Positions 21,914 through 45,144 of a stretch of 64,000 bases of DNA are shown piece after piece. The notes below the pieces were generated by a model. It searched no databases and was not told the DNA's origin. It worked only from the letters and a program-made list of their open reading frames with translations. The position numbers and the translations under genes were made by a program. The DNA comes from Apibacter raozihei. Lineage in GTDB: Bacteria > Bacteroidota > Bacteroidia > Flavobacteriales > Weeksellaceae. The stretch spans positions 2,771,716 to 2,835,715 of the forward strand of contig NZ_CP034930.1 of assembly GCF_004014855.1 (NCBI RefSeq), in the 5' to 3' direction. How positions within the stretch are numbered: the stretch's first letter is position 1; each line of letters begins with the position of its first letter.

Positions 21914-23332
21914 TCAAATTGCTTTATCATCTCCTCCGATAGCTTTAAAAACTGTCCTTATAATTATAAACATATCTAACAAAAAAGACCAGTTTTTAAC
22001 ATAAAAAATATCCGCTATAATTCTTTTTTGCATATCTTCTTTAGAATTTATCTCACCTCTGAATCCTTTAACCTGAGCAAGCCCTGTTATTCCAGGTTTT
22101 ACATAATGTCTTAAACTATACTTTAACATAATTTCACTATAGTATTCATCTTGAACTACCATATGAGGTCTTGGTCCAACAATTGACATATTACCTTTAA
22201 GAACATTAAAAAACTGAGGGAGTTCGTCTAGACTAGTACGTCTGAGTATTAAACCGAATTTCGTGATTCTTGTATCTCCTTTAACTGTTGCTTTAACATC
22301 ATTATCTTTACTGAATTTCATTGTCCTAAATTTATAACAATAAAAAGGTTTTCCCTTTAAACCTATTCTTTTTTGCAAATAAAAAATAGGTTTTCCTGAG
22401 TCCAACAATATACCTAAAGCTATGATTGGAAACATCCAGCTAAGAAAAAACACAATAACTAGTAATGAAAATATTATATCAAAAATTCTTTTCAAAAATT
22501 GGTTCCCAAAATTATCCAACGGAAACTCTTTAAATACTAATACTGGAAATGTATCATAATATTCCATTTTTAAACTGCTAAAAGAATCATAAATAGTACT
22601 AGGAACAAATCTAATTTCGATATGTAACTTTTGAGCTAAATATATTATTTCTTCCTGTACTTCACAGGATAGTTTTCCATCTAAAGAAAAAAACACTATT
22701 TGTATATTATTTTTGAGCAAATAATATTTTAATTGATTAATGTTGAATTCAAAAAGCTTATCTTTATTTTGACTTTCAATTTCTTTTAAAAAAATACCAA
22801 AATTAACAAAACCATAGTCTTTTCTCTTTTCTAACATTCTTACAAAAGAACTTGTATTGCTATTTTCATCAACAAACACTACACGTCTGAAATTCCCTCC
22901 CCAAATCCTGTACTGTCGTAAAAATTCAAAGAAAACCAAACGTAAAAATGACGTTAAAACAAACATAATAAATAAAAAATATAAAGATAATCTATTAGAA
23001 AATAATTGAACATCTTTTAATCCTGAAACAGTAAACAATACAATTGAAAATAAGAAAATATGAAAAATATTTCTTTTTAAAATATCTAAAAAAGTTATAG
23101 GCCTGAATTCTTTGTATGCTCTATAGTCAATTGAAATCAAAAACCAGCTAAAAATGAAAAGTATGATCGCTTTATAGTGTAAGAGGATAAAATGTGTAAT
23201 GTTAAATTCAGTTCTACCATGTTCTTTATAATCAATTTTCACACATAAGTAAAAAAGAATAAAAATAATAATACTATCTATAATATTTATTATAAATGAT
23301 ATGTACTTAGAATATCTTGTTCCTTTATTCAT
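21914..23332 (-). CDS. Initiating sugar-phosphate transferase (WcaJ/WbaP-type polyprenyl glycosylphosphotransferase)
   Basis: 472 residues. It transfers the first sugar 1-phosphate to undecaprenyl phosphate and so starts each repeat unit. Four or five membrane segments lie in the first ~145 residues, followed by a Rossmann-like regulatory region. The C-terminal catalytic domain reads KRIFDIIFSLLVIVFF (re-entrant helix), then GKPIFYLQKRIGLKGKPF, YKFRTMKFSKDND, TSLDELPQFFNVLKGNMSIVGPRPHM, the standard bacterial sugar transferase motifs. It is the last gene of the leftward locus, separated by 293 bp from the one before; I see no promoter or terminator in that gap. Donor sugar unknown. Confidence 0.93.
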   Translation of the reverse strand: MNKGTRYSKYISFIINIIDSIIIFILFYLCVKIDYKEHGRTEFNITHFILLHYKAIILFIFSWFLISIDYRAYKEFRPITFLDILKRNIFHIFLFSIVLFTVSGLKDVQLFSNRLSLYFLFIMFVLTSFLRLVFFEFLRQYRIWGGNFRRVVFVDENSNTSSFVRMLEKRKDYGFVNFGIFLKEIESQNKDKLFEFNINQLKYYLLKNNIQIVFFSLDGKLSCEVQEEIIYLAQKLHIEIRFVPSTIYDSFSSLKMEYYDTFPVLVFKEFPLDNFGNQFLKRIFDIIFSLLVIVFFLSWMFPIIALGILLDSGKPIFYLQKRIGLKGKPFYCYKFRTMKFSKDNDVKATVKGDTRITKFGLILRRTSLDELPQFFNVLKGNMSIVGPRPHMVVQDEYYSEIMLKYSLRHYVKPGITGLAQVKGFRGEINSKEDMQKRIIADIFYVKNWSFLLDMFIIIRTVFKAIGGDDKAI

Positions 23333-23625: not shown

Positions 23626-24969
23626 TTAAATGATTTTTTTATAAAAATATGATAGTATTATAAAAAATTTATCATTAAAAAATAAAGGTAAAGATATGAA
23701 AGATATAAATACATATTGATTTATATTAGAAATATAATTTAATTGTAACATTAAAAAAACTACAATAGATATTAGACAAATCAGCGGTAAATATAATAAA
23801 TTATTATGAATATATAATTCAAACCAAAACTTTTTAAATATAACTCCTAAAAAAATAAATAATATAATACCAAACCATCCAAAATCTAAATACCAATAAA
23901 AGAAAAATGTTGACCAGACACCTAATCTTGCATTTGCCTTATTGACTTCGGTATTAATATCTTTATAATTTTCAGAAATTCTAAATAATTTATAATATAT
24001 TTTGTAAAAAACTGGAAAAGTAGCCTTCCCATACATGTATTGTATATTATTGTTATCTACATTGTTTTTTACTTGAGAAAATTCGAATACAGCATGAATA
24101 GTATATTGTGAAGAATTTACATATCCTACTAAGAACGGATACCATAAAGTCCCTTTTGATTTTATAATTAAATTTTGAAATTTTTTTGTAACAGGAACTT
24201 TTTCTGAAAAAGCTGATGCTTTTCCATTTAATGCGTCAATAGGCTCCTTGTTCATATTTTCAATACGATTAATAAAAAAAAAGCCAACTACATAAAAAAA
24301 AGAAGAAGTTATGATTATTCCCCCTATTAACAATTTATATAAATTTAACTTATAATTTGAATATGAACTAAAAAATACAATAATTAAATAGATAAATGGA
24401 ACTATAATACCAAATCTGGAACCGAAAAATAAATTGCTAACAGGTAATAAAATAAATAATAGAAATGAAAAAATTTTAATTTTAAATGAGTGAAAATTTT
24501 TACATAGTAAATCTATGGTAATAGGAATATAGGAATAATACATTAAAAGATTTGCCAATGTAGAAAAAATTGACCCATCAGAAGATCTTCTTAAGTAAAT
24601 ATTTTGCAAAATATTATTTTGAAAAGAAATATTCTTATAAAAAAATAAATCTATATAGTAAAAAATAAATCCAGTAATTCCCAAACAAAACGAAATCCAA
24701 TATATTTTTTTTAGATTGTTAATTGAAATGAAGCATTTTAAATATTTATTATAGTTCTTTACATCATTTTTAGGTATTGAAATGATTTGTGTTCCTAAAA
24801 ATAGAGCTAAATAAGAAACTATTATGTAAATTAAAGAAATACTATCTATACTAGCTTTAATATCAACAGGAGCAATTACAAACATTAATATCCAAAACAA
24901 AAAGCTATAAACTATTATGAGTTCAGGCCTTAAAAAGCTTATAAATTGTTTATTTAATTTGATCTCCAT
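23626..24969 (-). CDS. Oligosaccharide repeat-unit polymerase-like membrane protein (Wzy candidate 1)
   Basis: 447 residues with about ten to twelve hydrophobic segments and a larger loop in the middle (about residues 235-325), the layout of Wzy-type O-antigen polymerases. The loop contains GKATFPVFYKIYYK, and the C-terminal part contains LGVWSTFFFYWYLDFGWFGI, similar to an oligosaccharide repeat-unit polymerase motif. Wzy joins undecaprenyl-linked repeats in the periplasm. Sequence conservation in this family is low, so the call rests on topology and context. A second candidate is at 27313-28716. Confidence 0.72.
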   Translation of the reverse strand: MEIKLNKQFISFLRPELIIVYSFLFWILMFVIAPVDIKASIDSISLIYIIVSYLALFLGTQIISIPKNDVKNYNKYLKCFISINNLKKIYWISFCLGITGFIFYYIDLFFYKNISFQNNILQNIYLRRSSDGSIFSTLANLLMYYSYIPITIDLLCKNFHSFKIKIFSFLLFILLPVSNLFFGSRFGIIVPFIYLIIVFFSSYSNYKLNLYKLLIGGIIITSSFFYVVGFFFINRIENMNKEPIDALNGKASAFSEKVPVTKKFQNLIIKSKGTLWYPFLVGYVNSSQYTIHAVFEFSQVKNNVDNNNIQYMYGKATFPVFYKIYYKLFRISENYKDINTEVNKANARLGVWSTFFFYWYLDFGWFGIILFIFLGVIFKKFWFELYIHNNLLYLPLICLISIVVFLMLQLNYISNINQYVFISFISLPLFFNDKFFIILSYFYKKII

Positions 24970-25057: not shown

Positions 25058-26149
25058 TTATCTTAAAATTTGATTAAAATGGTTGATATATTTTTCAACT
25101 ATAATATCCCAATTATATTTATCGTTTATCTTTTGTACATTAGATTTTATTTTGTCTTCATAATTTATTTTATTAATTGTTAAAATAATACGACATACAT
25201 CTTCAGAATTTTCAAAATATACTGCATCTTGATCCAATATTGAATAATTAAATATATTTTTATGTGCACAAATTAAAGCTTTTGAAGACATTGCTTCTAA
25301 TAATGATGGATTTGTTCCTCCAACTGTATGACCATGAAAATATAAATTGGAAAAATATCTTAAATTATTTAAAATATTTATATCATATATTCCTCCCAAA
25401 AATTTTATATTGGAATACTCTTGAAATTTATTTTTTAAATATTCTCCATATTTGGTTTCATGTTTACCAATTATTAAAAACGGATGATTATTTTTTGCTT
25501 TAGCTACACCTTCTAAAATTGTATCTACACTATTTTCAGGTTCTAAACGAGCAATTAGCATATTGTAATTAAATTTGAAAATATTAAATTGACTTATGCA
25601 AGAATCATCTGGACTATCAAATAAATCTGCTCCATAAGGTATATAGATTGAGTTTTGATTATATTTTTCTTTTAAATAATCTTGTATACCAATCGAATCT
25701 GATATTAAAAAATCGCTATATTTAACACCTAATTTTTCAGCAAACTGGAGAAATTTCTGAACTTTTTTTGAATACTTTGTTCGTTTCCATTCAAGGCCAT
25801 CCATGTTGGTAGTTACAACACTTTTACTTCTAGGCAACATCCACCCCCAAATAGAACTGCTGGTATATCCCAACTGTAAAATTATATCAAAATTCTTTTT
25901 GCGCGTATCTTTAATACAATTAAAATCATATATAAATTGCCCAGCGGTGCCCATTTTATCTTCTGGATCGTAACAATGCACAATACTTACTCCTTGCCAT
26001 TCTTTTTCTTGATAGGGATGGCTATGTGAATTGTAAACTGTAACCTGGTTACCTGCTTTTACCAATCCTAATGATAAATATTCTGCAAACTGTTCAAATC
26101 CGCCATAGTGATTAGGTATTCCTCTCGTTCCTATTATTGCTATATTCAT
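25058..26149 (-). CDS. DUF1972-type glycosyltransferase (rhamnosyltransferase-like, GT4)
   Basis: 363 residues. MNIAIIGTRGIPNHYGGFEQ is the hallmark of the DUF1972 N-terminal domain, and VYNSHSHPYQEKEWQGVSIVHC with GTAGQFIYDFNCI also fits. The C-terminal GT-B domain carries ARLEPENSVDTILEGV and HGHTVGGTNPSLLEAMSSKA. Characterised members such as pneumococcal Cps2T add rhamnose to the first lipid-linked sugar, but no rhamnose nucleotide genes are present in this window, so the donor here is open. Cytoplasmic face of the membrane. Confidence 0.88.
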   Translation of the reverse strand: MNIAIIGTRGIPNHYGGFEQFAEYLSLGLVKAGNQVTVYNSHSHPYQEKEWQGVSIVHCYDPEDKMGTAGQFIYDFNCIKDTRKKNFDIILQLGYTSSSIWGWMLPRSKSVVTTNMDGLEWKRTKYSKKVQKFLQFAEKLGVKYSDFLISDSIGIQDYLKEKYNQNSIYIPYGADLFDSPDDSCISQFNIFKFNYNMLIARLEPENSVDTILEGVAKAKNNHPFLIIGKHETKYGEYLKNKFQEYSNIKFLGGIYDINILNNLRYFSNLYFHGHTVGGTNPSLLEAMSSKALICAHKNIFNYSILDQDAVYFENSEDVCRIILTINKINYEDKIKSNVQKINDKYNWDIIVEKYINHFNQILR

Positions 26150-26195: not shown

Positions 26196-27293
26196 TTATA
26201 AGCAAGTAGTTAAATAATTATATAAATTATTGGATATTTTATCCCAGTTATAATTTTCTACTATTTTATCATGTATAAACTTATATGGATAATTTTTATC
26301 ATCTAAAACCTCTTTTAATTTTTCTTTAAATTCTTCAAAATTGTTAGGATTAAATGTGTATTTAAAAAAATTAAAATCTGACATCGCTGTTTGATTAGAA
26401 GATAAAACTTTACAATTATTAACTCCTGCCTCTAAAGGTGGAATACCAAAACCTTCTGCAAAAGAAGGGTATACAAAACATGATGATTCCTGATAAAAAT
26501 AATTCATTTCTTGTTCACTTAAATCATCAAAGAAAAATATTCGATTAGCAATGGTTGGAGGAATTTTTTTAACTAACATTTCGTATGTTTGTTTTTCAAC
26601 CTTATCTTTTTTTCTTCCAATAAATACTAAATCATATTCTTTATAAAGATTTAAGTTTAAATAGACCTCTAAAAGTCCTATTTGATTTTTCCTAGGTTCA
26701 AATCTGCTAACATAATGTATATAATTTCTAAGATTGTATTTATCTTTCATACTTATATTAGATTTTATTTCTTTAGATAACCTTACAGCATTAGGAGTAA
26801 TAAAAATTTTATTCGAATCAATTTTAAAATTTTTAGCTATTGCCTTTTTTGAATATTCTGAAACTGTAAGTATAATATCTGTCTTTTTTGCAGAATATCT
26901 AAATAATATTCCTTTGACTAATCTATAAGACCAAGGAAAATAATTTTTAAAATCTAAAAATAAAACATCATGAATAGTATTAATATATTTACATTTTTTT
27001 ATTGGAGGAACAATATACTGAAAATGTGCATAATCAAATTTATTATCCCTAATTATTTTAGGCAACTCAAAAAGTAAACGTTTTATCTTGGATTTCGATT
27101 GTAACTGTATATATTTAAAATTTTTATGTGGGAAAAAATTTTGTAACCTATTCACATCATGCGAACATAATGTTATTTCAATATCATCAAATCCAACTAA
27201 AGAATTATAAAGTCCCATCAAATAGCTTGTTGTACCTTGAAAAGAATTGTCAAATACATGAGCATCAACGAGTATTTTATTTGTTTTTTTCAT
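26196..27293 (-). CDS. Family 4 glycosyltransferase
   Basis: 365 residues with GT-B architecture. The acceptor domain begins KILVDAHVFDNSFQGTTSYL; the donor domain includes YVSRFEPRKNQIGLLEVYLN and the nucleotide-sugar motif SFAEGFGIPPLEAGVNNCKV (E-x7-E type). It resembles mannosyltransferase-like members of GT4, but substrate cannot be fixed. It sits between the DUF1972 transferase (46 bp) and the second polymerase-like gene (19 bp), so it is part of the same leftward operon and should add one sugar of the repeat unit. Confidence 0.88.
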   Translation of the reverse strand: MKKTNKILVDAHVFDNSFQGTTSYLMGLYNSLVGFDDIEITLCSHDVNRLQNFFPHKNFKYIQLQSKSKIKRLLFELPKIIRDNKFDYAHFQYIVPPIKKCKYINTIHDVLFLDFKNYFPWSYRLVKGILFRYSAKKTDIILTVSEYSKKAIAKNFKIDSNKIFITPNAVRLSKEIKSNISMKDKYNLRNYIHYVSRFEPRKNQIGLLEVYLNLNLYKEYDLVFIGRKKDKVEKQTYEMLVKKIPPTIANRIFFFDDLSEQEMNYFYQESSCFVYPSFAEGFGIPPLEAGVNNCKVLSSNQTAMSDFNFFKYTFNPNNFEEFKEKLKEVLDDKNYPYKFIHDKIVENYNWDKISNNLYNYLTTCL

Positions 27294-27312: not shown

Positions 27313-28716
27313 TTAATAATTAGATTTATACCTTAATTTATTATTATTACTCAATTTAACATAAGAAAATAAGAATAATACAACGAAATATGGCATAAAT
27401 ATATCAGGAATATCAGTTCCTATAAGATGAATAATAACCCCTACAAACATTCCATACGAAAATATATTATTTTTTATTATTATAATTTCCGAAAACGCTA
27501 AAAGAAATAGAATCATTCCTAAAATTCCCATTTCTCCTAAGAGAGAAAAAATAAAAGCATCTGTTACCACATTATAGGACACAATACCTGCTCCTGAATC
27601 TATTTCAACATTTAAATCTGCTTTTTTGGATGTTAAATTACCGACACCTTCTCCTAAAATTGGTTTTTTTTCGAAAGCTGAAAGCGCATAATCTGAAAAT
27701 ATTTGTCTTTGAGATAATACATTTTTTTTAGAATTATCATTTGAAAATATATCAAATGTAGATGTAAAATCTACCAAATTATTATTTAAACTAATTGAAA
27801 CATTTCCAAACCCAATAATTATAAATGTAATAATAGAGATAATTATAAGCCCTATTTTAAAATTTTTATTTACTCTGAAATATATGAATAAAATCAATAA
27901 GAATATAAATACTATGATCCCACCCCTTGAGACTGTTGATAATGATACAGCAAACAGTAAACAAACCTCCAATAAATTTATATTCTTCTTCTTTTGTATA
28001 AGTATGTAAAAATAAATATATACAAAAATGCCTAAAATTCTTCCATCAAAAAAAATACCTTGATTTCTAATTAAATTAAAATAATCTATAAAAGGTATAT
28101 CGTTAGCCTCGCCGAATATAGTTCCTTCTTTATATAAAAAATTATTTGTTTCAATATAATTAGGCAATAAATAAGTTATAAGGGAAGTAATAAATATTAA
28201 TCTAAAATAGATTGTGATATGAAACAAATTAATATTTTTTATTTTATCGGAATAGAAAAGTATAGCAATAGCAAAGTATATAGGGGGAATTATCCTTTTA
28301 AATAATAAATCTGAAGATTTAGGAAGATTAAAAATAAAACTTAAAATTAAGAAAAAAAGAAAAATGAAAAAAAATTTGAATTTTGAACTTATTCTTTTTT
28401 TTATAAAAGCTAAATTTTTAACATTAATTAATATATACAATAAAAAAGGAAAATAAAAAGTACAAAATATAGTAAGCTTATAAAAAATGATATTATTAGG
28501 AACTATAAATCCATTAATAATTCTAGCCGAGAGAATAAGTATAATAATAATAAATAAATTATTATATTTAATTAAAATATAATAAGATAAAAAAAGAATT
28601 AAAACGCTAAATATTGGTATAATCGGTTGAAAAACATAAATTAAAATTTGTGAAATAGCAATTAATAAAGATAATGCATATATTAATTTAATTTCTTTAT
28701 TTTTTAAATATATCAT
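27313..28716 (-). CDS. O-antigen ligase/polymerase-like membrane protein (Wzy candidate 2)
   Basis: 467 residues with about twelve hydrophobic segments. The stretch ALSAFEKKPILGEGVGNL in a large periplasmic loop matches the Wzy_C (O-antigen ligase/polymerase) signature with its G-x-G region, and SLSTVSRGGIIVFIF upstream of it is also typical (SRGG). It may be the repeat-unit polymerase, leaving the other membrane protein for a ligase-like or side role, or the reverse. It overlaps the upstream KpsS-like gene by 4 bp, implying coupling. Confidence 0.8.
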   Translation of the reverse strand: MIYLKNKEIKLIYALSLLIAISQILIYVFQPIIPIFSVLILFLSYYILIKYNNLFIIIILILSARIINGFIVPNNIIFYKLTIFCTFYFPFLLYILINVKNLAFIKKRISSKFKFFFIFLFFLILSFIFNLPKSSDLLFKRIIPPIYFAIAILFYSDKIKNINLFHITIYFRLIFITSLITYLLPNYIETNNFLYKEGTIFGEANDIPFIDYFNLIRNQGIFFDGRILGIFVYIYFYILIQKKKNINLLEVCLLFAVSLSTVSRGGIIVFIFLLILFIYFRVNKNFKIGLIIISIITFIIIGFGNVSISLNNNLVDFTSTFDIFSNDNSKKNVLSQRQIFSDYALSAFEKKPILGEGVGNLTSKKADLNVEIDSGAGIVSYNVVTDAFIFSLLGEMGILGMILFLLAFSEIIIIKNNIFSYGMFVGVIIHLIGTDIPDIFMPYFVVLFLFSYVKLSNNNKLRYKSNY

Positions 28717-30065
28717 ATTGTTTTACCTAAAATTATTTTATAAAAAGCTTTCGAAACATTATCTATATTGATGCTTTCAATACATTTAGGATTACTTACT
28801 GGATCACTAATGATTCCTTCAAAGGAATTAGCAAAAATATATTTCTTTTTTCTTTCGTCATCTTCATTATTAGGTATAGTATCCATTATACTTAGAATAT
28901 TTTTACTAAATTTAAAATCATCTAATGATATTTTTTTCACATATGAAAAGTCAAAAAATACATCACATAAAATTAATGATTTCTTTTGTAATAATGCAGC
29001 TTCATAAGCTATGGTTCCGGATATAGTAACAACCGCTTGACAATATTCTAATAACTCATAAGAATCTGTTTTTTCATCGATAAATATCAAATTTTTATAT
29101 TTTCTCAGTTTATTATAAAACTTCCAAGATCTATCTCCTACTGCATTCGTGTGTTCTTTTATCACTAATAACCAGTCTTGTGGTAATTGCTTCCAGATAA
29201 CAATAATATTTGTAAACTGGTCTTCCATATATCTTCCCAAAACATCTACTGAAGCCTCTGGCTGTTTATGCAGAGTAAGCAAAATAAATTTTTTGTTTTT
29301 TATAGTATCTAGATTAATTTTAGGTATAAATTTATACGTTTCTTTGTTTAACTCTTCAATAAACGGAATGAAAAATCTATTAAATTTCCATTTTTCAGGT
29401 AAAGTAATATCATCAGAATCTAAATTTTCTGAAGTAATAAATTTTTTAATCCTTTTAATTCTTCCTTGCCATGAATTTTTCTTTTTTAATATTTGATCAT
29501 TTAATTGTAAATAATCTGGTTTTTTGGGAATAAACGCATCAACAGGATATTGCATTTTTTCATAGTTCAAATCAAATTCATACATTTTAGATTGAAATTC
29601 ATCCACAAAAAAAGCAAATCTTCCTCCGGGAATTCTAATAGTGTGCGGATTTAAAAATTTACAATTTAACTCTTGACAATATTTCGTCATTCTAAAAATC
29701 AATAACTCATGAGCCCACGTTAACTCTCCAAAGATATATTGAATGCGATTATCTTTAATAAAATCATAAACGGGTTTTTGTATTTTTGTCAGAAAATCAA
29801 CACCTTTATTAGTAGAGAATTTCAATATTCTATCTCCGTATACAATTTCGTTAAGTTTGAAATCATCAATAGCTGTGTTTTTAGTATCTAAAATTACACT
29901 CTTAGATAAATATAAAATGTTATTAGTATATTTTTCTAAAAAATTTTTGTTTGATTTATTAACAACAATCCAATAAATGTTAATATCATATTTCTCTGAA
30001 AGATATTTAGATATCTCAAAAAAGAATTGTGTTTTATGATAGTTAGCAATAAAACAAATATTCAT
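28713..30065 (-). CDS. KpsS/Kdo-transferase-like capsule glycosyltransferase; pseudaminyltransferase candidate
   Basis: 450 residues, no membrane segment. The C-terminal half has motifs of the capsule-polysaccharide synthesis family (KpsS/KpsC, LipB): LTLHKQPEASVDVLGR, then VIKEHTNAVGDRSWKFYNKL near residue 303, IDEKTDSYELLEYCQAVVTI, and SGTIAYEAALLQKKSLILCD near 348. These proteins use CMP-activated 3-deoxy sugars such as Kdo. Established knowledge: a KpsS-like enzyme of Acinetobacter (family GT118) transfers pseudaminic acid. Since a full CMP-pseudaminic acid pathway is encoded just upstream in this operon, this gene is the best candidate for the pseudaminyltransferase; that assignment is inference. 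Confidence 0.75.
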   Translation of the reverse strand: MNICFIANYHKTQFFFEISKYLSEKYDINIYWIVVNKSNKNFLEKYTNNILYLSKSVILDTKNTAIDDFKLNEIVYGDRILKFSTNKGVDFLTKIQKPVYDFIKDNRIQYIFGELTWAHELLIFRMTKYCQELNCKFLNPHTIRIPGGRFAFFVDEFQSKMYEFDLNYEKMQYPVDAFIPKKPDYLQLNDQILKKKNSWQGRIKRIKKFITSENLDSDDITLPEKWKFNRFFIPFIEELNKETYKFIPKINLDTIKNKKFILLTLHKQPEASVDVLGRYMEDQFTNIIVIWKQLPQDWLLVIKEHTNAVGDRSWKFYNKLRKYKNLIFIDEKTDSYELLEYCQAVVTISGTIAYEAALLQKKSLILCDVFFDFSYVKKISLDDFKFSKNILSIMDTIPNNEDDERKKKYIFANSFEGIISDPVSNPKCIESINIDNVSKAFYKIILGKTI

Positions 30066-30071
30066 ATAAAT

Positions 30072-30800
30072 TTATTTTCTTAAAAAGTAATATCCATTTT
30101 TTTTAACAACATTTTCATCATTTTGAAAATTTGCCACTTCTGATTTTTTAACTAAACCTGTAGAAACATAAAAACCTGATGAATTAATAGATTTTGAAAC
30201 AACTGTCCCAGATCCTACCGATACTTGATCACATATATTACAACCTGGTAATATAATTATTTTTGACCCCATATAACAGTTATTACCGATTTTGATCGTT
30301 GATTGTTTTTTAACATGCTTTAAATCAAAGCCATGAGTCCACAATTGAGATCCACTTCCACCTATGGTTACATCTTCTCCAATAATTATTTCATCTGATA
30401 AATCAAATGAATGTTTATTAGTAATTATGGAATTTTGTCCTATTTTTATATTTTCATACTCTTTAAACGGGCTTATATCTCCTGATGTTCCAAAAAAAAC
30501 ATTTGAAGAAACAATTATTACATTATTTTTAATTATACAATTATTAAGATTTGAAAATCTATTGAATTTAACAATAAAAGAATTTTCTCCAATACACATC
30601 TTGTTAACATTTCTTATTATATTAAAATATCCTGAAAATCCTGCATTAGGATATATTTTTAAATTTTGACATAAAATAAAATTTAATGGTTTAATTTTAC
30701 TATTATATGAAATATTATATTTCAATGTATTTCTATATAAAAAAATCCTCAAAATATTAAAAGGAATAAATGCAATTACTACTGCTAAAATTTTTTTCAT
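30072..30800 (-). CDS. Left-handed beta-helix acyltransferase (sugar O- or N-acetyltransferase)
   Basis: About 242 residues from the ATG at 30798-30800, which overlaps the upstream flippase stop in an ATGA arrangement; a longer reading from 30824 is possible but less likely. The N-terminus is hydrophobic and may anchor the protein. The body consists of hexapeptide repeats ([LIV]-G-x4): CIGENSFIVKF, IGQNSIITNK, IIIGEDVTIGGSG, IKIGNNCYMGSKIIILPGCN, VSVGSGTVV. A catalytic His is likely in SQLWTHGFDLK. It resembles maltose/virginiamycin-type acetyltransferases used in polysaccharide modification. Target sugar unknown. Confidence 0.85.
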   Translation of the reverse strand: MKKILAVVIAFIPFNILRIFLYRNTLKYNISYNSKIKPLNFILCQNLKIYPNAGFSGYFNIIRNVNKMCIGENSFIVKFNRFSNLNNCIIKNNVIIVSSNVFFGTSGDISPFKEYENIKIGQNSIITNKHSFDLSDEIIIGEDVTIGGSGSQLWTHGFDLKHVKKQSTIKIGNNCYMGSKIIILPGCNICDQVSVGSGTVVSKSINSSGFYVSTGLVKKSEVANFQNDENVVKKNGYYFLRK

Positions 30801-32011
30801 ATTAATTTTATTTTTTTTAAACAAAATAGTAGTAGAACAAATGATACTAGAACCGAAATAGCCATACAGAATGAAATGTAATTTACTGTTATATTAGCTA
30901 ACGGGTTAAATAATAAAAAGAAATATATAATCATACTAATACATGAAATATATAAAATCCATTTATTTCTATTCGTTTTGTTTAAATATTGTTCAAAGTA
31001 AGATTGCTGACACCAAATAAATACATATAACAATAAAAATATTGCCGTAACACCTAAATCAATTTTTGGTAAAAAATTTAATGTATTTATCACAAATATC
31101 ATCATTAAACACAATAAAACCGTTGAAAATAAAAATAGTGAATAAAATTTATATAAACGAAAATCTATTTTAGTAGTTGAATCTAAATAAATTTTTTTAG
31201 AATAATATGCTGAAATAGACACGTGAGCCATCTGAATAACCATAGAAATCCTCAATAGATAAGAAAAAGTATACATTTCTTCTTTTGAGAATCTTTGAAA
31301 AATATATATTTTTCCAAAATTATTCATTATAGTTATTAAAAGGACATTTAATATTACGGGCCAAGAATATTTAATTGCTTTTTTTAGATAATCCATACTA
31401 AATAAAATAGAGCTTTTATTTATATATTTTCCTTCTTTTATAGAAACCAAAACTATAAATAACATTTGGACTGAAAAAAAATAATACACTCCATTTGTAT
31501 TTGTAATAAATTTATTTAAAATAAATAATATCAATATAGTCAAACTGTTTATCAGTATTGAAATATACAATATATTTTGAGGCTTATCCAATAATCTAAA
31601 ATAAACTGAAAAATAATTTATAAATAAAACTATTAAACACCTTATGCTAATAAAAAAAATAATATTATTGATAAAGCTAGTTAGTGTGCATGTTAGTAAT
31701 ATTGCCAGTACTAATAAAATATAAAAAAAATTAAGTATGTAAAAAAAACCTTTTACTCCTTCTAAATATTTTTTTTTATCTTGTATATTGACGTACCCAT
31801 ACAACATATACGCTCTTCCTCCCAAATCTAGAACTACCACCATAATATTAGCTATAGAAAATATATATTCTATATCATTGTATAATGATATATTTTTAGT
31901 AAAATATAGAACAAATAATGGTAGTAAAAAAGCTAATCCTTTATCTATATAATTTAGAGAAATAAAATATAATAACGATTTATATTTTAAAATTTTCATA
32001 ATAAATATCAT
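30797..32011 (-). CDS. Wzx-like polysaccharide flippase
   Basis: 404 residues with about twelve hydrophobic segments and almost no large loops, the layout of MOP-superfamily flippases. The N-terminus (YKSLLYFISLNYIDKGLAFLLPLFVLYF) matches the first helix region of Wzx proteins, and KAIKYSWPVILNVLLITIMNNFGKIYIF matches the start of the second six-helix half. It would move undecaprenyl-linked repeat units to the periplasm. It overlaps the AsnB-like gene upstream; an internal ATG at 31999 would shorten the overlap to 20 bp. It is the only flippase in the locus. Confidence 0.85.
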   Translation of the reverse strand: MIFIMKILKYKSLLYFISLNYIDKGLAFLLPLFVLYFTKNISLYNDIEYIFSIANIMVVVLDLGGRAYMLYGYVNIQDKKKYLEGVKGFFYILNFFYILLVLAILLTCTLTSFINNIIFFISIRCLIVLFINYFSVYFRLLDKPQNILYISILINSLTILILFILNKFITNTNGVYYFFSVQMLFIVLVSIKEGKYINKSSILFSMDYLKKAIKYSWPVILNVLLITIMNNFGKIYIFQRFSKEEMYTFSYLLRISMVIQMAHVSISAYYSKKIYLDSTTKIDFRLYKFYSLFLFSTVLLCLMMIFVINTLNFLPKIDLGVTAIFLLLYVFIWCQQSYFEQYLNKTNRNKWILYISCISMIIYFFLLFNPLANITVNYISFCMAISVLVSFVLLLFCLKKIKLI

Positions 32012-33491
32012 TTAGTTTATTATCAAAAAAATCATAAACCTCATTTTCAATTATTCTTGGATTAGTAAATGTGCATTGATTTTTATCTTTTAGTTTTAAG
32101 ACATTTAATTGATTTTCTTTACTTACCGCATATTTAGGAAAAAAAATCTCATGAAAATTATCTTTATATTCAATAGTATGATAGATTAAATCTGGTATAG
32201 CAAAAGGCAAAATAACATTATTAAAACCAAAATATTTAGGAGCTTTTATTGCAACTTGATTATCAGAGCCTTGAAGAAAAGTATTGATTTTTATTAGCAT
32301 TTGTTTCATAAAAAGTTCAGTGACATCTTTGGTTATTGAAGTATTATATTCCTCAATACTTTTAATATATTCTAAGTCAAAATCATTTAATAAAAATATA
32401 TATTCTTTTTCATCCGTAAAGGCTATTAATTTTTCATTTTTATTTTTAGGTAATTTTAATTTTAAATTATTTTTATGTTCAAAAATTTTTTTAGGTAAAA
32501 ATGATACCCAATTAGGACTATATAGAATAATTCTTTTTAATAAAGAACCAATACCTTTTTCTGAAGGACCAAAAGATAAAATGCTATCTGAAGACTGCCC
32601 ATTAATAAAAATTGTATCTTTTGTAAAAATATCTTTCAATTTCTGAAATCCACCAAAGTGCAACAAAGAATAATGTTTATCAAAAAACATTTCATTAACT
32701 ATATTATCAATTAGATACTTTTTAGTTTTCTCCAAATCTACTTCCACCTTAATAAAATCAATATCTAAATGATCAGCTACTTCTTTCGCTCTTATAAAAT
32801 CATTATAATTAGACTCATACTCCGGATAAGCATATAAAAAAACTGCTTTAAAATTTATCTTTAACTCTTTTAGTATACTAACTAAAAAAACAGAGTCTTT
32901 TCCACCGGAAAACAATATCACTATTTCATTTTTAACATTGGTTAAATAAGAAAAAACCTCAATAATGTCTTTTCTTATTAGTTTTTTATGCAGATATTTA
33001 TCAGGCTTTCTTTTTAAATCCTTTTTAAAATAGCTTTTAACGGTATTTTTTCCATTTTTAAGAATTCTAAAAGTAGAATGAGGAGGTAATTTATTAATCT
33101 TTTTTATAAATGTTCTATCTCCAAATGTATATCTATGTTTTTTCCAAAACTTAACTTGAATTTCATCTATCTCCAAGTGTCCGCTATTTTTAATATAGTC
33201 TATTATTAAATTATAATTGTTAGTTAAAAATAAAATACTTTCATCTTCGTATTTATATAATCTATATCCCCCGGTAATATCTGAAGAAATTATTATTTCA
33301 TTATCATTATAGTATAAATATAAAAAATAACCTGAAATTTGATTTAGTTTTTCAGATAAATCTCCTTCCAATTCAAATAAATTAATTTTACTTATTGGAT
33401 ATCCCCACCAAATTACTTTATCTTTTTTATAGAAAAAACTATCATTTATATCTATTATAATTTTTTTTCTAAAATTGAACTCTAATCTCAT
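31980..33491 (-). CDS. AsnB-like ATP-dependent amidotransferase without the glutaminase cysteine
   Basis: 503 residues. The C-terminal half is the ATP pyrophosphatase domain of asparagine synthetase: PP-loop SGGKDS at residues 195-200, then LKINFKAVFLYAYPEYESN and later NGQSSDSILSFG. The first ~150 residues resemble the class II glutaminase fold (GYFLYLYYNDNEIIISSD, GGYRLYKYED), but there is no Cys after the initiator Met (MRLEFNF), so it should not make ammonia from glutamine itself. The start overlaps the pseI stop by one base (TAATG), tying it to the pseudaminic acid genes. It may form an amide or amidine on the sugar or another locus product; the substrate is inference. Confidence 0.85.
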   Translation of the reverse strand: MRLEFNFRKKIIIDINDSFFYKKDKVIWWGYPISKINLFELEGDLSEKLNQISGYFLYLYYNDNEIIISSDITGGYRLYKYEDESILFLTNNYNLIIDYIKNSGHLEIDEIQVKFWKKHRYTFGDRTFIKKINKLPPHSTFRILKNGKNTVKSYFKKDLKRKPDKYLHKKLIRKDIIEVFSYLTNVKNEIVILFSGGKDSVFLVSILKELKINFKAVFLYAYPEYESNYNDFIRAKEVADHLDIDFIKVEVDLEKTKKYLIDNIVNEMFFDKHYSLLHFGGFQKLKDIFTKDTIFINGQSSDSILSFGPSEKGIGSLLKRIILYSPNWVSFLPKKIFEHKNNLKLKLPKNKNEKLIAFTDEKEYIFLLNDFDLEYIKSIEEYNTSITKDVTELFMKQMLIKINTFLQGSDNQVAIKAPKYFGFNNVILPFAIPDLIYHTIEYKDNFHEIFFPKYAVSKENQLNVLKLKDKNQCTFTNPRIIENEVYDFFDNKLNDIYYENFKI

Positions 33492-34519
33492 TATTTAATC
33501 AAATCGAAATTTAACCGTTCACCTTTATTTACCTCTTGATTAACAGTCTTACCTAAAATTTCAGGTAAAAATTTTGGATGCAAACCATATCCAGGCCGTA
33601 TGGATTTAACATTATCATTTGTGATAACTTCGCCTTTTTTCATATTTTCGACCACATACAGTGATCTACAAAAATCTTTACCTTTAATTTGTTTGTCTGT
33701 CAAAGAGAAATCACTACTGCCTAAAGATAACTCTGCTTCTCTAACTGATTTAACCATTTTAGTGAACTCAATTTCATCTAAAGAAAATGATGCATCAGGG
33801 CCCCCTATGCTTTTATCTAATATAAAGTGTTTTTCAATGACCTTGGCTCCAAGCGCTACGGAAACTATAGGAACAGTAATCCCTAAAGTATGATCAGATA
33901 GTCCTACATTTGTATTGAATTCTTCAGCAAGCTTAGGAATCATAGTAAGATTAGCTTCGTCGATTGGTGCCGGATAAGATGAGGTACATTTTAATAAAGT
34001 TATATCGTTATTCCCTACCGAATGACAAGTTTCAATAGCTAATCTAATATCTTCATACTCTGCAATTCCCGTAGATATAATCATAGGTTTACCCTTAGAA
34101 GCTGTATATTTTATTAATGGTATATCAGTTATTTCAAAAGAAGCAATTTTATAAATAGGACAATCTAATTCCTCTAAAAAATCAACTGCTGAAAAGTCAA
34201 AGGGAGAAGAAAAACATAGTAAACCTTCTTGTTTTGCCGTATCAAACAATTCTTTATGCCATTCCCAAGGCGTATATGCTTCTTTGTATAAATCATATAA
34301 ATACTGGTCTTGCCATATTGTTCCTTTAATCCTAAAATCGTCTTTTTTACTATTTAAAGTTATAGTATCAGCTGTATATGTCTGAAGCTTAATAGCATCA
34401 GCTCCAGCTCGTTTAGCCGCTCTAATAGTTTCTTTAGCAACACTAATATCATTACCATGATTAGCGGATAACTCAGCAATCACAAAAACTGATTGTTTAT
34501 TAAATTTTGATATTTTCAT
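33491..34519 (-). CDS. pseI: Pseudaminic acid synthase
   Basis: 342 residues. PseI condenses PEP with 2,4-diacetamido-2,4,6-trideoxy-L-altrose to give pseudaminic acid. The NeuB-type TIM barrel is intact: FVIAELSANHGNDISVAKET, GADAIKLQTYTADTITL, YKIASFEITDIPLIKYTASK, ISTGIAEYEDI, LLKCTSSYPAPIDEANL, GLSDHTLGI, GAKVIEKHFILDKSIGGPDA. The last ~60 residues are the antifreeze-like SAF domain (RSLYVVENMKKGEVIT, IRPGYGLHP). PseI is favoured over NeuB or LegI by these variants and by the pse neighbours. It follows pseH after 148 bp that holds nothing I recognise. Confidence 0.95.
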   Translation of the reverse strand: MKISKFNKQSVFVIAELSANHGNDISVAKETIRAAKRAGADAIKLQTYTADTITLNSKKDDFRIKGTIWQDQYLYDLYKEAYTPWEWHKELFDTAKQEGLLCFSSPFDFSAVDFLEELDCPIYKIASFEITDIPLIKYTASKGKPMIISTGIAEYEDIRLAIETCHSVGNNDITLLKCTSSYPAPIDEANLTMIPKLAEEFNTNVGLSDHTLGITVPIVSVALGAKVIEKHFILDKSIGGPDASFSLDEIEFTKMVKSVREAELSLGSSDFSLTDKQIKGKDFCRSLYVVENMKKGEVITNDNVKSIRPGYGLHPKFLPEILGKTVNQEVNKGERLNFDLIK

Positions 34520-34667: not shown

Positions 34668-35207
34668 TTAAATTTTTAATAATTTACCTATATAAGCCTT
34701 CTTATTTTCCCATTCTTTTTTAAATAATGCTAATATATGTACATCTTCAAATTGATTATCTAAAATGTATTGCTCTTTTAAAATTCCTTCAGTAATAAAT
34801 CCAAATCTTTTATGTAATTGTATAACTTTTTTATTAAAATTCAGGACTTCGCATGAAACTTTATTCATTTCCAGATCTTCAAAAATATAATTTAAAATTT
34901 TAAATTCAACAATTGCTCCAATCCCCGAGTTTAAATATTCAGTTTCTCCAATGTATAAGCTAGCAAACTCACAACGATGATTATTGTAATCTATATTTTT
35001 CAGACATGCATAACCTACTGATTTCAAATTATTAGTTATTATCCAATGAATTTGGGATTTATTATTTTCTAAATTGGAAAACCATAATTTTTGATTTTCT
35101 TGAGATATATAGGCTCTATTATAAGAAACATTTTTAATTAAATCCGAATTTCTCCATTTTCTGATTTGTTCGATATCGGATTCATTAACTAACCTAAAAT
35201 TAATCAT
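34668..35207 (-). CDS. pseH: UDP-4-amino-4,6-dideoxy-N-acetyl-L-altrosamine N-acetyltransferase
   Basis: 179 residues, GNAT fold. PseH uses acetyl-CoA to acetylate the 4-amino group made by PseC. The start (INFRLVNESDIEQIRKWRNSDLIKN) is the usual RimJ/PseH N-terminus; the acetyl-CoA region is weakly spelled around YIGETEYLNSGIGAIVEFK, followed by NKVSCEVLNFNKKVIQLHKRFGF. It overlaps the end of pseG by 8 bp. RimJ-like ribosomal acetyltransferases look similar, but the position inside a pse operon decides the call. Confidence 0.9.
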   Translation of the reverse strand: MINFRLVNESDIEQIRKWRNSDLIKNVSYNRAYISQENQKLWFSNLENNKSQIHWIITNNLKSVGYACLKNIDYNNHRCEFASLYIGETEYLNSGIGAIVEFKILNYIFEDLEMNKVSCEVLNFNKKVIQLHKRFGFITEGILKEQYILDNQFEDVHILALFKKEWENKKAYIGKLLKI

Positions 35208-36165
35208 GAATTAAATTATTAAATATATTAAAATACCTTTCCTGCTGTTTACCATCAAAGAAATAATCTTGAAGTTGATAATTGGGTTCAAAATGGCTCC
35301 CTATAAAATAATTATTAATTGAGTCAGCTAAATTATTTCTTATCGAATATTCATAAAAATCCTTTTGATTATCTGCTGTTTTAACTAAATATAATTTGCC
35401 CTTACAAACAGATAAATATTCTAAGGCTACCGTACTCGGAGAACAAATTGAAATTTTGCTTTCAGTCATTATTTTAATTATTTCAATCGAGCTAATATTT
35501 GAATAAATTAAAACTCTATTTTCTAAATTATTTTGTTTAACGTAATCATCCAATTCATTTAAATATAGATACGCTGCTCCAACACAAATATTAATTTTTT
35601 CAAAACTGATAAGTTTCTTTAAAATTTTTAAAGTTATATTGTTTATATCTCCTCCCCCTAAGCATAAAAATATATTATTATTATCAGGAAATGCCTTTTT
35701 TTCACCAGAGAATTGTAAAAATTCATTTCTTAATAAAGCATATTGAAATCCTAAAAACATTTTTGTATAAGGTTGAACGGAGTAGTCATTTTTAGAAACA
35801 CCTTCAGATGGGTTAATTACAATATCCGAATAAAACTCTTTATCATGAACATCATCAATACATACTAGTTTAGATCCAAAATTTTTAATTTTTTTTTGAT
35901 ATTCTGTATTAAAAAAATAATTATCCAAAACTGCTATTACATTTCTATTAAGTTTAGATAAAAATTCATTTTCGTTTTTTATTAAAAAAAAATGAAAATT
36001 TTTATTTTTTATTTGACTGATTAATAAATCAGGAATTTTTTCACAAAAAAAAGTAACTTCAAAATAAGGTTTCAAAATTTCACCTAAAGCTAAGCATCGA
36101 AATAAATGTCCTAAACCAATTTGAGTATTACCATCCACTCTTATATAAACTTTCTTACTTATCAT
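35200..36165 (-). CDS. pseG: UDP-2,4-diacetamido-2,4,6-trideoxy-L-altropyranose hydrolase
   Basis: 321 residues. PseG removes UDP to give the free 6-deoxy sugar that PseI uses. The N-terminal motif VYIRVDGNTQIGLGHLFRCLAL, with the catalytic His in GLGH, is diagnostic; the GT-B-like second domain includes FLCLGGGDINNITLKILKKL and ICSPSTVALEYLSVCKGKLY. It overlaps both neighbours: pseF upstream by 11 bp and pseH downstream by 8 bp, so translation of the set is coupled. Cytoplasmic. Confidence 0.94.
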   Translation of the reverse strand: MISKKVYIRVDGNTQIGLGHLFRCLALGEILKPYFEVTFFCEKIPDLLISQIKNKNFHFFLIKNENEFLSKLNRNVIAVLDNYFFNTEYQKKIKNFGSKLVCIDDVHDKEFYSDIVINPSEGVSKNDYSVQPYTKMFLGFQYALLRNEFLQFSGEKKAFPDNNNIFLCLGGGDINNITLKILKKLISFEKINICVGAAYLYLNELDDYVKQNNLENRVLIYSNISSIEIIKIMTESKISICSPSTVALEYLSVCKGKLYLVKTADNQKDFYEYSIRNNLADSINNYFIGSHFEPNYQLQDYFFDGKQQERYFNIFNNLIHD

Positions 36166-36838
36166 TATTTAATTTATATTTAAGTTCAGCCAGCTTCCAA
36201 TCTGTTTCATTGTCTATATCCTGTACACTTAATTCTGATAATATAATTGAAGTTGAATTTTCCATAAATAAAGTATGAGAAAATTTTTTTACCATAAACC
36301 AATACCATTGTCCGGCGTCATGGTATACAGAGTCTAAATCTTGTGAACGTGAGTTACTATATTCAGGCCAAATCATTTTAGTTTTTCCATCAATTATTTT
36401 CACACTTCTCCAAACCGGATAACTAAAAGCTACTATAGGAAAAACTGAATCGAATATACCTTTTTGTAATGTTTCATATCCTTTTATTAAATCACCTTTT
36501 TTAATTAATGGAGCGGTCGGATATATACAACAGGCATGATCAAATTTTTTTCCTATTAATTCATAATTATCGAGTACCTCTTGCAACACATCCATTGTAG
36601 TTGAATAATCGTTAGAATTTTCTTCAGATCTCATAAAAGGTACTTTAGCCCCGTATTTTTGAGCAACTTCAGCAATTTCGCTATCATCTGTTGAAACCAT
36701 TATTTCGTCAAACAAATTACTATCTATTGCAGACCTGATAGAATAAGAAATAATTGGTTTTCCTAAAAAATTTTTGATATTTTTTCTCGGAATTCGTTTA
36801 CTTCCTCCTCTTGCAGGAATAATAGCCAAATTACTCAT
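36155..36838 (-). CDS. pseF: Pseudaminic acid cytidylyltransferase
   Basis: 227 residues, usual length. PseF activates pseudaminic acid with CTP to CMP-Pse. Motifs: IIPARGGSKRIPRKNIKNFL (nucleotide-binding, like NeuA), GKPIISYSIRSAIDSNLFDE, VSTDDSEIAEVAQKYGAKVP, CCIYPTAPLIKKGDLI, and the acceptor contacts in FSYPVWRSVK and DAGQWYW. The YPTAPL and DAGQWY wording is characteristic of PseF as against NeuA and LegF. Overlaps pseC upstream by 8 bp and pseG downstream by 11 bp. Confidence 0.95.
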   Translation of the reverse strand: MSNLAIIPARGGSKRIPRKNIKNFLGKPIISYSIRSAIDSNLFDEIMVSTDDSEIAEVAQKYGAKVPFMRSEENSNDYSTTMDVLQEVLDNYELIGKKFDHACCIYPTAPLIKKGDLIKGYETLQKGIFDSVFPIVAFSYPVWRSVKIIDGKTKMIWPEYSNSRSQDLDSVYHDAGQWYWFMVKKFSHTLFMENSTSIILSELSVQDIDNETDWKLAELKYKLNNDK

Positions 36839-39787: not shown

Positions 39788-39824
39788 TATATTATAATCT
39801 TATCTTTTTTTAGATCAATATATT

Positions 39825-44370: not shown

Positions 44371-45144
44371 TTAACGGGTAAGTACGGAAATCACTGAAAT
44401 TATTACACCTGCCAATGAAACAAAAACTGATGTTGTTGCACTATAAGCAGAAGATGTCCTTTTTGCACTGTTGGGATGAACATACACCACATCATTTTGT
44501 GACAAATAATAGACTGGAGATCGAAATATATCTTTAGATGTTAAATCGACATGTGTAAATGTTTTGTTACCATCAATCTCTCTTACAACTATAATATCCT
44601 TTCTTTTTCCATAAATAGTTAAATCTCCAGCTAACCCTAAAGCTTCTAAAATAGTAATTTTTTCATTGGCTAATGTATAAGTTCCTGGCTTGGTAACTTC
44701 TCCCAAAACAGTTATTCTGAAGTTTGTTATAGAAATATTGACTGATGGATCTTTTATGTACTTAGATAATTTATTTCTCATAAAATCCATAGCCTCATTT
44801 CTAGTTAATCCTCCTAATTTTAATTTCCCTAATACAGGAAAATCTATATCTCCATTTTCATCTATCAAGTAGGTTTTTAGTCTAGGATTTGTTGTTGTAA
44901 CACTTTCGGTCACATTATTATAATTATACGCATTTTGTTGATTGAATGGTAATGTTGATTCCAAATCCAAAGCAGAAACTGTAATCACGAGTAAATCATC
45001 CGGTTTTAAAGTAGGTGTATATTTATATACATCTTTTAACAAAATTTCATCTCCCTGAAAATAATACATTTCTTTTTTGGAAGCACAAGATGATAAAATA
45101 AACAAAGACAAAATAACAATATAATAGAAGTTACTTTTTTTCAT
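44371..45144 (-). CDS. wza: Wza-type polysaccharide export lipoprotein
   Basis: 257 residues. The lipoprotein signal ends at Cys20 (LFILSSCASKKEMYYFQGD). A polysaccharide export (PES) domain follows: YTPTLKPDDLLVITVSAL, LKTYLIDENGDIDFPVLGKL, LTRNEAMDFMRNKLSKYIKD; then an SLBB domain: FRITVLGEVTKPGTYTLANE and ITILEALGLAGDLTIYGKRK. The C-terminal hydrophobic stretch (VFVSLAGVIISVISVLTR) is the amphipathic or membrane helix typical of the Flavobacteriia form. It forms the outer-membrane exit channel for the polymer. First gene of the leftward locus, with a ~170-bp leader. Confidence 0.95.
   Translation of the reverse strand: MKKSNFYYIVILSLFILSSCASKKEMYYFQGDEILLKDVYKYTPTLKPDDLLVITVSALDLESTLPFNQQNAYNYNNVTESVTTTNPRLKTYLIDENGDIDFPVLGKLKLGGLTRNEAMDFMRNKLSKYIKDPSVNISITNFRITVLGEVTKPGTYTLANEKITILEALGLAGDLTIYGKRKDIIVVREIDGNKTFTHVDLTSKDIFRSPVYYLSQNDVVYVHPNSAKRTSSAYSATTSVFVSLAGVIISVISVLTR

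Follow-up and report, generated by a model that had tools for sequence, protein, structure and literature searches.

What does a KpsS-like protein transfer in a capsule-type locus that also encodes synthesis of a nonulosonic acid (NulO)? The window, by which we mean the whole 64,000-nucleotide stretch of Apibacter raozihei DNA that was analysed, holds such a locus, and a first-pass annotation had proposed its KpsS-like open reading frame (ORF) as a candidate pseudaminyltransferase. The ORF was confirmed at exactly 28713..30065, within the following set of genes:

21914..23332, minus strand: initiating sugar-phosphate transferase (PF02397, 218 bits)
23626..24969, minus strand: second repeat-unit polymerase candidate (TIGR04370, 53.1 bits, cut-off 40)
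25058..26149, minus strand: GT4 glycosyltransferase with DUF1972 (PF09314, PF13439)
26196..27293, minus strand: GT4 glycosyltransferase (PF00534)
27313..28716, minus strand: Wzy-type polymerase (PF04932, Wzy_C, 41.6 bits, cut-off 31.7)
28713..30065, minus strand: predicted CMP-pseudaminate glycosyltransferase, GT118-related, GT-B fold (450 aa, ATG start, uninterrupted)
30072..30824, minus strand: hexapeptide acyltransferase adjoining the transferase (PF00132, 26.9 bits, just short of cut-off 27)
30797..32011, minus strand: multi-pass protein, putative Wzx flippase
31980..33491, minus strand: Asn-synthetase-like PP-loop protein (TIGR01536, 38.9 bits, far under cut-off 267; PF00733, 19.6 bits, cut-off 21)
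33491..34519, minus strand: PseI (TIGR03586, 518.7 bits)
34668..35207, minus strand: PseH (TIGR03585, 109.6 bits, cut-off 93.1)
35200..36165, minus strand: PseG (TIGR03590, 173 bits, cut-off 153.55)
36155..36838, minus strand: PseF, CMP-Pse synthetase (TIGR03584, 295.7 bits, cut-off 205.7)
36831..38027, minus strand: PseC (TIGR03588, 446.8 bits, cut-off 423.5)
38024..39034, minus strand: PseB (TIGR03589, 519 bits, cut-off 407.75)
41966..44362, minus strand: Wzc-type chain-length/tyrosine kinase (Wzz, GNVR, AAA_31)
44371..45144, minus strand: Wza-type export protein (PF02563, 58.5 bits)

PseB, C, F, G, H and I each score above their NCBIfam equivalog cut-offs, completing the pathway to the CMP-pseudaminic acid that the first-pass annotation had ascribed to the same operon (pseudaminic acid, Pse, is a bacterial relative of sialic acid), and PseI was the single NeuB-family synthase match in the genome in a search with the PseI model. 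The ORF of the Wzy-type polymerase shares 4 bases with that of the transferase, at the stop codon of the latter, and the two further glycosyltransferases are both of GT4 type (Pfam), the nearest NCBIfam model to the one at 25058..26149 being the Cps2T rhamnosyltransferase (205 bits, under the cut-off of 500). The earlier description of Wzx, Wzy and Wzc features without KpsC held for Wzy_C, the Wzc-type protein and the missing KpsC; the multi-pass protein at 30797 had no Pfam or NCBIfam match, and only its position and size make it a candidate Wzx. A search for inverted repeats throughout the locus gave AT-rich ones, none of them notable. We consider the KpsS-like protein to be very probably the pseudaminyltransferase of the locus, transferring Pse in plain or modified form, a reading based on homology, fold, conservation and genomic linkage in which the donor is a prediction.

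By library models the ORF appears only weakly KpsS-like, with scores below the Pfam gathering thresholds for both PF05159 (Capsule_synth, 18.4 bits, cut-off 20) and PF02350 (Epimerase_2, UDP-GlcNAc 2-epimerase, 24.2 bits, cut-off 30.6). Classification by such models alone was dropped, as all Pfam and NCBIfam matches were sub-threshold and PHROGs gave none. In a genome-wide profile search this same sub-threshold ORF was the sole PF05159-type match, so that neither a KpsC nor a second KpsS was seen in the genome, and the search returned no KpsC partner of the kind expected for a group 2 (ABC-transporter) capsule. The top match in a PDB sequence search was a WbbB entry, at a suggestive but not significant E-value of 0.49.

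Comparison of profiles was more informative. The family profile (41 rows) gave 144.8 bits to KpsS1, the GT118 transferase of Pse5Ac7Ac from an Acinetobacter baumannii Wzx/Wzy capsule locus, against 26.2 and 18.0 bits for E. coli KpsC and KpsS, 2.2 for NeuE and −1.6 for NeuS; the KpsS1 reference came from an A. baumannii K locus (L023) and was labelled from locus order and Tyr131-Glu132, not from the deposited sequence. Homology to KpsS1 extends over most of the length, with a hhalign probability of 99.9% (E 3.8e-34, 376 columns) between the family and the KpsS1 group, whereas the match to the Kdo group of KpsC and KpsS was weak (95.8%, E 7.4e-9, 113 columns). The profile comparison with GT118 that the first-pass annotation had called for is thus positive. 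Its view that a Wzx/Wzy setting is odd for a KpsS-type enzyme needs amending: the transferase is not out of place there, since the A. baumannii KpsS1-type protein also lies in a Wzx/Wzy locus and the transferase lacks the QxxxD signature of the Kdo enzymes. The two proteins share the HxxPE motif, the base Glu (E132 in KpsS1, E114 here), the K-x-H motif and adjoining pse genes; they differ in length (450 versus 480 aa) and in the stretch QPEASVD, which reads HPESSTS in KpsS1. BLASTP identity is 26% over 328 alignment columns (E 2e-17), and in a tree built by a quick method, with long branches, KpsS1 falls on a separate branch from the 50-row clade of the query; the identity and the branching were both counted against the main reading.

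Maf flagellin NulO transferases and the sialyltransferases of GT42, GT52 and GT80 also use CMP-NulO donors, as predicted for the transferase. No Maf (PF01973) match was found in the genome, and a GT52 (PF07922) search of the genome was without a match, but its control was equally silent.

In their genomic setting, members of the transferase family are strongly and specifically linked to genes for making CMP-nonulosonates. A homologue was found in 2 of 296 same-family genomes, one of them the genome under study, and because of this patchiness phylum-level genomes and a species collection served as the source of the family. Nonulosonic acid genes adjoin the homologue in 49 of the 55 loci so obtained (at least 30% identity, >70% coverage), with pseI in 39, another NulO synthase in 9 and only pseB/C in 1; among the six loci without NulO genes, four have contig ends within 3.3 kb on one side and two (L099, L105) have full flanks. 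The nine loci with another synthase and the six with none were counted against Pse as the donor. Of the 11 homologues in another, separate sample of genomes, 10 adjoin NulO genes, compared with 1 of 20 regions around relatives of the neighbouring GT4 (Fisher p 2.6e-6), a control that covered 18 genomes, included seven regions shorter than 14 kb and drew on relatives of mostly 25–32% identity. PseI exceeded its cut-off in all seven genomes of a 198-genome sample whose homologue reached E 3.5e-5 or better (on a different contig from the homologue in one, G329), and in 9 of 11 when four weaker matches were included. A pse operon was present in all four loci examined from nine matching records of a plasmid collection. 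Distant relatives, such as those of Inquilinus, have no pseI nearby, a further point counted against the main reading. As a whole, the linkage supports the pseudaminyltransferase candidacy alongside the homology to KpsS1.

The donor may be a modified Pse, given the nearby Asn-synthetase-like and acyltransferase genes: the Asn-synthetase-like protein is possibly a Pse modifier, and the hexapeptide acyltransferase possibly O-acetylates the repeat unit. A refinement that overlaps the main reading holds that the donor is a Pse modified, for instance, by O-acetylation or through amidation by the neighbouring Asn-synthetase-like protein, and that plain CMP-Pse5Ac7Ac is a poor substrate. We regard it as rather unlikely, although the two genes lie beside pseI and the transferase, respectively, and PMC6388019 and PMC6120980 describe a Tannerella forsythia transferase, encoded in a cluster with asnB, as stringent for the fully modified CMP-NulO. 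Homologues of the Asn-synthetase-like gene occur in only 2 of the 55 loci, so it is not required by the transferase family; those of the hexapeptide acyltransferase occur in 25 and those of the GT4 at 26196..27293 in 31. According to the same papers, T. forsythia GtfS (Tanf_01245, 445 aa) is an in vivo Pse5Am7Gra transferase of a Bacteroidota O-glycan. By description only, it resembles the transferase in its length, its pse cluster with asnB and an HP-type motif, but it acts on a protein O-glycan, whereas the transferase studied here lies in a Wza/Wzc polymer locus. A scan of 393 genomes from the order of the Phocaeicola genome that holds locus L087, with the family profile and with the BFO_1060 model, gave six loci above the cut-off of the latter model, none of them recognisable as from T. 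forsythia.

The predicted structure (pLDDT 91.9, pTM 0.90) has the fold of the retaining Kdo transferases of GT99, GT107 and GT140 in VIA-align, with WbbB at the top (5fa0, Z 15.0, rmsd 4.5 over 290), followed by KrkA (9yfy, Z 13.1, rmsd 4.5) and KpsC (6mgb, Z 13.1, rmsd 4.2). UDP-GlcNAc 2-epimerases reached Z 12.9, level with KrkA and KpsC, and came first when Foldseek ranked matches by E-value (KpsC at row 39, where rmsd was equally poor); this ranking and the VIA-align tie were also counted against the main reading. Together with the sub-threshold Epimerase_2 match, they would suit an ordinary GT-B enzyme or a 2-epimerase type acting on NDP-sugars, with Pse moved by one of the GT4 enzymes. 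Such an assignment is most improbable: WbbB is ahead by 2 Z units, superposition of the Kdo enzymes gives rmsd 4–5 as against 8–11 for the epimerases, the GT4 relatives lacked pse genes in 19 of 20 regions (seven of them <14 kb), and it is the transferase family that tracks NulO genes.

For the pseudaminyltransferase, alignment and conservation point to four sites on the fold:

29724..29726, minus strand: codon of Glu114, predicted general base, paired by hhalign with KpsS1 Glu132
29244..29270, minus strand: HKQPEASVD, residues 266–274, His266 and Glu270 aligned by hhalign with KpsC Gln156 and its nucleophile Asp160
29151..29159, minus strand: KEH, residues 303–305, counterpart of the (K/R)xHP CMP-binding motif (PMC12887879)
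29001..29021, minus strand: SGTIAYE, residues 349–355, predicted CMP phosphate/ribose contacts, which would pair with KrkA

Residue 114 aligns with KpsS1 Glu132, whose role was suggested in PMC12887879, and is Glu in all 48 close rows, among them the query, and in 77 of 91 rows of the wide set; its context is Gly-Glu, compared with Tyr-Glu in KpsS1. The CMP motif reads KEHT (KDHK in the KpsS1 reference), keeping Lys and His, with Thr in place of Pro, a loss that was counted against the main reading; the CMP contacts of KrkA are Ser272 and Glu276 (PMC12887879). The species collection was scanned with two patterns, one with HxQPE and one spanning residues ~347–356, so that the patterns themselves account for part of the conservation of these residues in the scanned loci; among the 15 homologues recovered independently of any pattern, Glu270 was kept in all 15 and His266 in 13, and Glu114 was aligned in only 6.

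The fold and the Lys and His of the CMP motif are shared with the retaining Kdo transferases WbbB (GT99), KpsC (GT107), KpsS and KrkA (GT140). The fold raises the question of whether the sugar that the enzyme adds to the repeat unit is Kdo, drawn from the CMP-Kdo that would be made for lipopolysaccharide; early annotators of A. baumannii kpsS suspected Kdo too (PMC3628348). We consider this very unlikely, since the QxxxD with its nucleophilic Asp is replaced by His266 and Glu270, KpsC and KpsS score 5 to 8 times below KpsS1, and NulO synthases accompany the homologues. A KpsC-type gene was not detected in the genome. The replacement of QxxxD by HxxPE leads us to favour Glu270, by a small margin, as the catalytic nucleophile in place of Asp. 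A different view of the mechanism alone, possible but distinctly less probable, is that Pse is transferred by an inverting or front-face route and Glu270 has a structural or binding role: PMC12887879 calls the mechanism of the Pse transferase unclear, the side chain of Glu exceeds that of the aligned Asp by one methylene, and Asp274 is likewise invariant in the close family. Against it, 90 of 91 rows carry Glu at residue 270, E. coli KpsS alone having Asp there; KpsS1 has Ser at the position of Asp274; and the Discussion of PMC12887879, citing Walklett 2024, reports KpsS1 to be retaining.

In the mechanism proposed for the pseudaminyltransferase, PseBCHGIF would supply CMP-Pse, or a modified CMP-Pse, as the donor. 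By homology with the retaining Kdo transferases, Lys303/His305, Thr351 and Glu355 would hold CMP, Glu270 (with His266 at the Gln position) would attack the donor to form a Pse adduct, Glu114 would activate the acceptor hydroxyl, and the product would retain the configuration. The presumed acceptor is the lipid-linked repeat unit while it is being assembled in the cytoplasm, where the transferase would act later than the initiating enzyme and alongside the two GT4 enzymes, in an order of sugars that is likewise a prediction; the Wzx/Wzy/Wzc/Wza set would then flip the unit, polymerise it and export the product.

The first-pass annotation had named CMP-Pse as the only known reason for such an enzyme in this locus, which is too strong, as relatives lie in Kdn-type or Leg-type loci; the fold therefore indicates a CMP-nonulosonate donor and the neighbouring pse genes indicate Pse. 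The Kdn-type locus L073 encodes a NeuB-type synthase and a cytidylyltransferase-phosphatase fusion, which scored 179.8 bits against the KDN-9-phosphatase model (cut-off 180); L084 is a further locus of Kdn type, and L028 is of Leg type. A comparison of close homologues, 6 of them Kdn-linked and 36 Pse-linked, yielded just two substitutions that satisfied the thresholds, His141 to Gln and Val345 to Ile, and the three L065-type rows yielded a single one, Gly88 to Ser, too little to call donor specificity from these residues. With such relatives the family resembles a set of CMP-nonulosonate transferases with switching donors. It is conceivable, though we lean somewhat against it, that within the retaining Kdo-transferase fold it makes up a broad branch acting on CMP-nonulosonates, where the Asp of QxxxD became the invariant Glu of HxxPE and the donor, mostly Pse but also of Kdn and Leg type, was switched more than once.

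The family is a widespread and for the most part uncharacterised group of enzymes, and keyword searches of a collection of papers found few enzymes that transfer Pse. Glycan synthesis, and the prediction of surface structures from genomes, call for an enzyme for every nonulosonic acid; the family offers many candidates from several phyla with a readable signature, it allows the identity of the catalytic nucleophile to be tested cleanly, and it includes natural pairs of close relatives that differ in the donor their loci seem to produce.

The 450-residue open reading frame of the predicted pseudaminyltransferase was confirmed as real, and its placement at 28713–30065 (minus strand) in the first-pass annotation is exact. 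It shares 4 bases at its stop codon with the start of the wzy-like gene downstream, and only 6 bases separate its own start from the preceding acyltransferase gene, which places it within a single gene run:

45144 to 21914, minus strand, with the wza-type gene at the 45144 end and the gene for the sugar-phosphate transferase at the 21914 end

Within the window, PseB, PseC, PseF, PseG, PseH and PseI all score above the NCBIfam cut-offs. Models also support Wza, Wzc, an initiating transferase, a Wzy_C protein and another candidate repeat-unit polymerase in the locus; of the Wzx, Wzy and Wzc features ascribed to it previously, Wzc and Wzy_C are backed by models, with the flippase (Wzx) assigned from position only. 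The transferase is the sole PF05159-type match found in the source genome, in line with the claimed absence of KpsC, and PseI is the sole NeuB-family synthase found there by the PseI model; CMP-pseudaminic acid (CMP-Pse) is therefore the only CMP-nonulosonate that the cell is seen to make.

Two polymerase-type membrane proteins are encoded in this one locus (23626–24969, minus strand, above the TIGR04370 cut-off; 27313–28716, minus strand, above that of PF04932); either one of them acts as a ligase, perhaps, or the locus may polymerise two different units. Adjoining the pse genes, the minus-strand stretch 39077–41934 encodes a LegB-like protein (462 bits, slightly below the cut-off of 475), LegC (524 bits, above cut-off) and a sugar-1-phosphate nucleotidyltransferase; despite the LegB-like and LegC genes, the PseI model finds one NeuB-family synthase in the genome, and the stretch looks like a truncated Leg pathway that would supply the repeat unit with a 4-amino-4,6-dideoxy sugar instead of making Leg. 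Adjoining pseI, 31980–33491 (minus strand) encodes an asparagine-synthetase-like PP-loop protein with SGGKDS, scoring far below the asparagine synthase cut-off, with homologues in 2 of 55 related loci (L097 and L100). In T. forsythia, an asnB gene within the cluster is suspected of a part in the Am modification of Pse (excerpts of PMC6120980).

A scan of a species collection returned 79 loci with homologues at most 50% identical to the window transferase. Nine records of a plasmid collection match it, and all four that were opened carry pse operons (A. baumannii, Sphingobium, Klebsiella and Mesorhizobium). In the A. baumannii K locus (L023), the homologue comes after pseBCFGHI (psaABCDEF), flanked by a gene of flippase size on the pse side and one of polymerase size on the other, both named by position. 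Because this homologue carries Tyr131-Glu132, as does KpsS1 according to excerpts of PMC12887879, and kpsS is placed in KL2 (excerpts of PMC3628348), it was taken as the KpsS1 reference, a label matched by residues and locus rather than by deposited sequence. The L023 record (NZ_CP077849.1, 3.66 Mb) is listed as a plasmid yet bears a chromosomal-type K locus, and is probably a mislabelled chromosome.

KpsS1, the founder of GT118 (PMC12887879 in part, citing Walklett 2024), is the nearest described enzyme. The profile comparison with GT118 proposed in the first-pass annotation came out in favour of this relationship: a family profile of 41 sequences, the window's among them, gave 144.8 bits for KpsS1 against 26.2 for KpsC and 18.0 for KpsS, in agreement with profile–profile comparison, and about 0 for the polysialic-acid enzymes NeuE and NeuS. 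A PDB sequence search gave a weak hint to WbbB only. The second-nearest described enzyme, Tannerella GtfS, which adds Pse5Am7Gra as shown by knock-out (excerpts of PMC6120980 and PMC6388019), is likened by description, not sequence; its cluster, too, has an asnB-like gene. In a 91-sequence tree built by a quick method, the query falls in a 50-row clade (SH-aLRT 99), with the KpsS1 group on a branch apart. Next to the query stands a protein of Pseudomonas delhiensis (SH-aLRT 85, not starred), encoded 34 bases away from pseI. Keyword searches of the available papers found no characterised member of this large clade. Four closely alike distant homologues (L102, L103, L104 and L106) come from Inquilinus limosus and a genome labelled Mycobacterium sp. 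KBS0706, a label that may be wrong; no pseI was found near them.

Loci were labelled Pse where PseI is at least 44% identical to the window's, and other nonulosonic acid (NulO) where the synthase is at 25–36%. The 79 loci comprise 43 Pse, 17 other NulO, 2 with pseB/C only and 17 with none; for the 55 homologues with at least 30% identity and >70% coverage, the counts are 39, 9, 1 and 6. In a further sample, of 395 phylum genomes, 11 homologues (E < 1e-7) were found besides the window's own: 5 with pseI, 1 at a contig end with pseB and pseC, 4 with a different NulO synthase (1 of these truncated where the extracted stretch stops) and 1 with none. Among relatives of the neighbouring GT4 enzyme, pseI occurs in 1 of 20 regions, which contains a transferase homologue too, and PseI exceeds its cut-off in 30 of 198 phylum genomes (the window's included). 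The homologue-locus counts, set against the GT4 control, argue that the NulO link is specific to the transferase and not general to capsule loci. The earlier idea of a pseudaminyltransferase is right in substance; we file the protein as a predicted pseudaminyltransferase related to GT118, ordinary in kind.

The other-NulO loci are not noise. A short synthase (~290–304 aa), NeuB-type by model in both loci scanned (L073 and L090), recurs in six of them (L073, L075, L081, L084, L090 and L096) together with a long cytidylyltransferase (~381–386 aa), which in L073, the only locus scanned for it, is fused to a phosphatase (179.8 bits against a KDN-9-phosphatase cut-off of 180); their transferases group together (SH-aLRT 94, not starred). 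These Kdn-type gene pairs (5244–7285 in L073) come from Flavobacteriaceae and Dyadobacter, and each locus also carries a transferase closely homologous to the window's. L028 is Leg-type (LegB, PtmE-like nucleotidyltransferase, Epimerase_2 protein, NeuB-type synthase); its transferase is only distantly related and does not fall in the 50-row clade. Since the other recognisable glycosyltransferases in L073, L084 and L028 are GT4 types (part of the ORFs scanned; three proteins lacked a Pfam match), the homologue is the remaining candidate for the CMP sugar there. Tying the donor to the operon's CMP-Pse fits the window but would not extend to homologues in Kdn-type and Leg-type loci; the locus seems to set the donor, which in the window would be Pse. 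L065 (4090–8287), L067 and L071 encode PseB (75–78%), PseF (51–52%), a PseH-like protein and a NeuB-type synthase (30–32% to PseI, the type checked by model in L065); these clusters possibly make another nonulosonic acid from the PseB product.

The predicted structure is confident (pLDDT 91.9, pTM 0.90). VIA-align placed WbbB first (Z 15.0, rmsd 4.5, 290 residues), followed by KrkA and KpsC (Z 13.1) in a tie with UDP-GlcNAc 2-epimerases, whose Z reaches 12.9, with superposition rmsd of 4–5 for the Kdo enzymes versus 8–11 for the epimerases; in Foldseek alone the best E-values belonged to epimerases and KpsC ranked 39th, with poor rmsd for all. The mechanism of WbbB and KrkA is a double displacement via the Asp of QxxxD (excerpts of PMC9587256 and PMC12887879). 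Profile alignment to KpsC equates His266 with Gln156 and Glu270 with Asp160. Residue 270 is Glu in 90 of the 91 aligned rows (Asp in E. coli KpsS only) and residue 266 is His in 86, a conservation partly built in by the construction of the scan; Glu270 is also kept in 15 of 15 homologues found without a pattern. From this alignment we infer that Glu in the NulO branch would take the role of Asp in the Kdo branch. Glu114, the counterpart of KpsS1 Glu132, never varies within the close family, though not all distant relatives have it. The clade, its Glu-for-Asp switch and its donor variety make a good setting in which to test donor choice and donor handling by retaining ulosonic-acid transferases.
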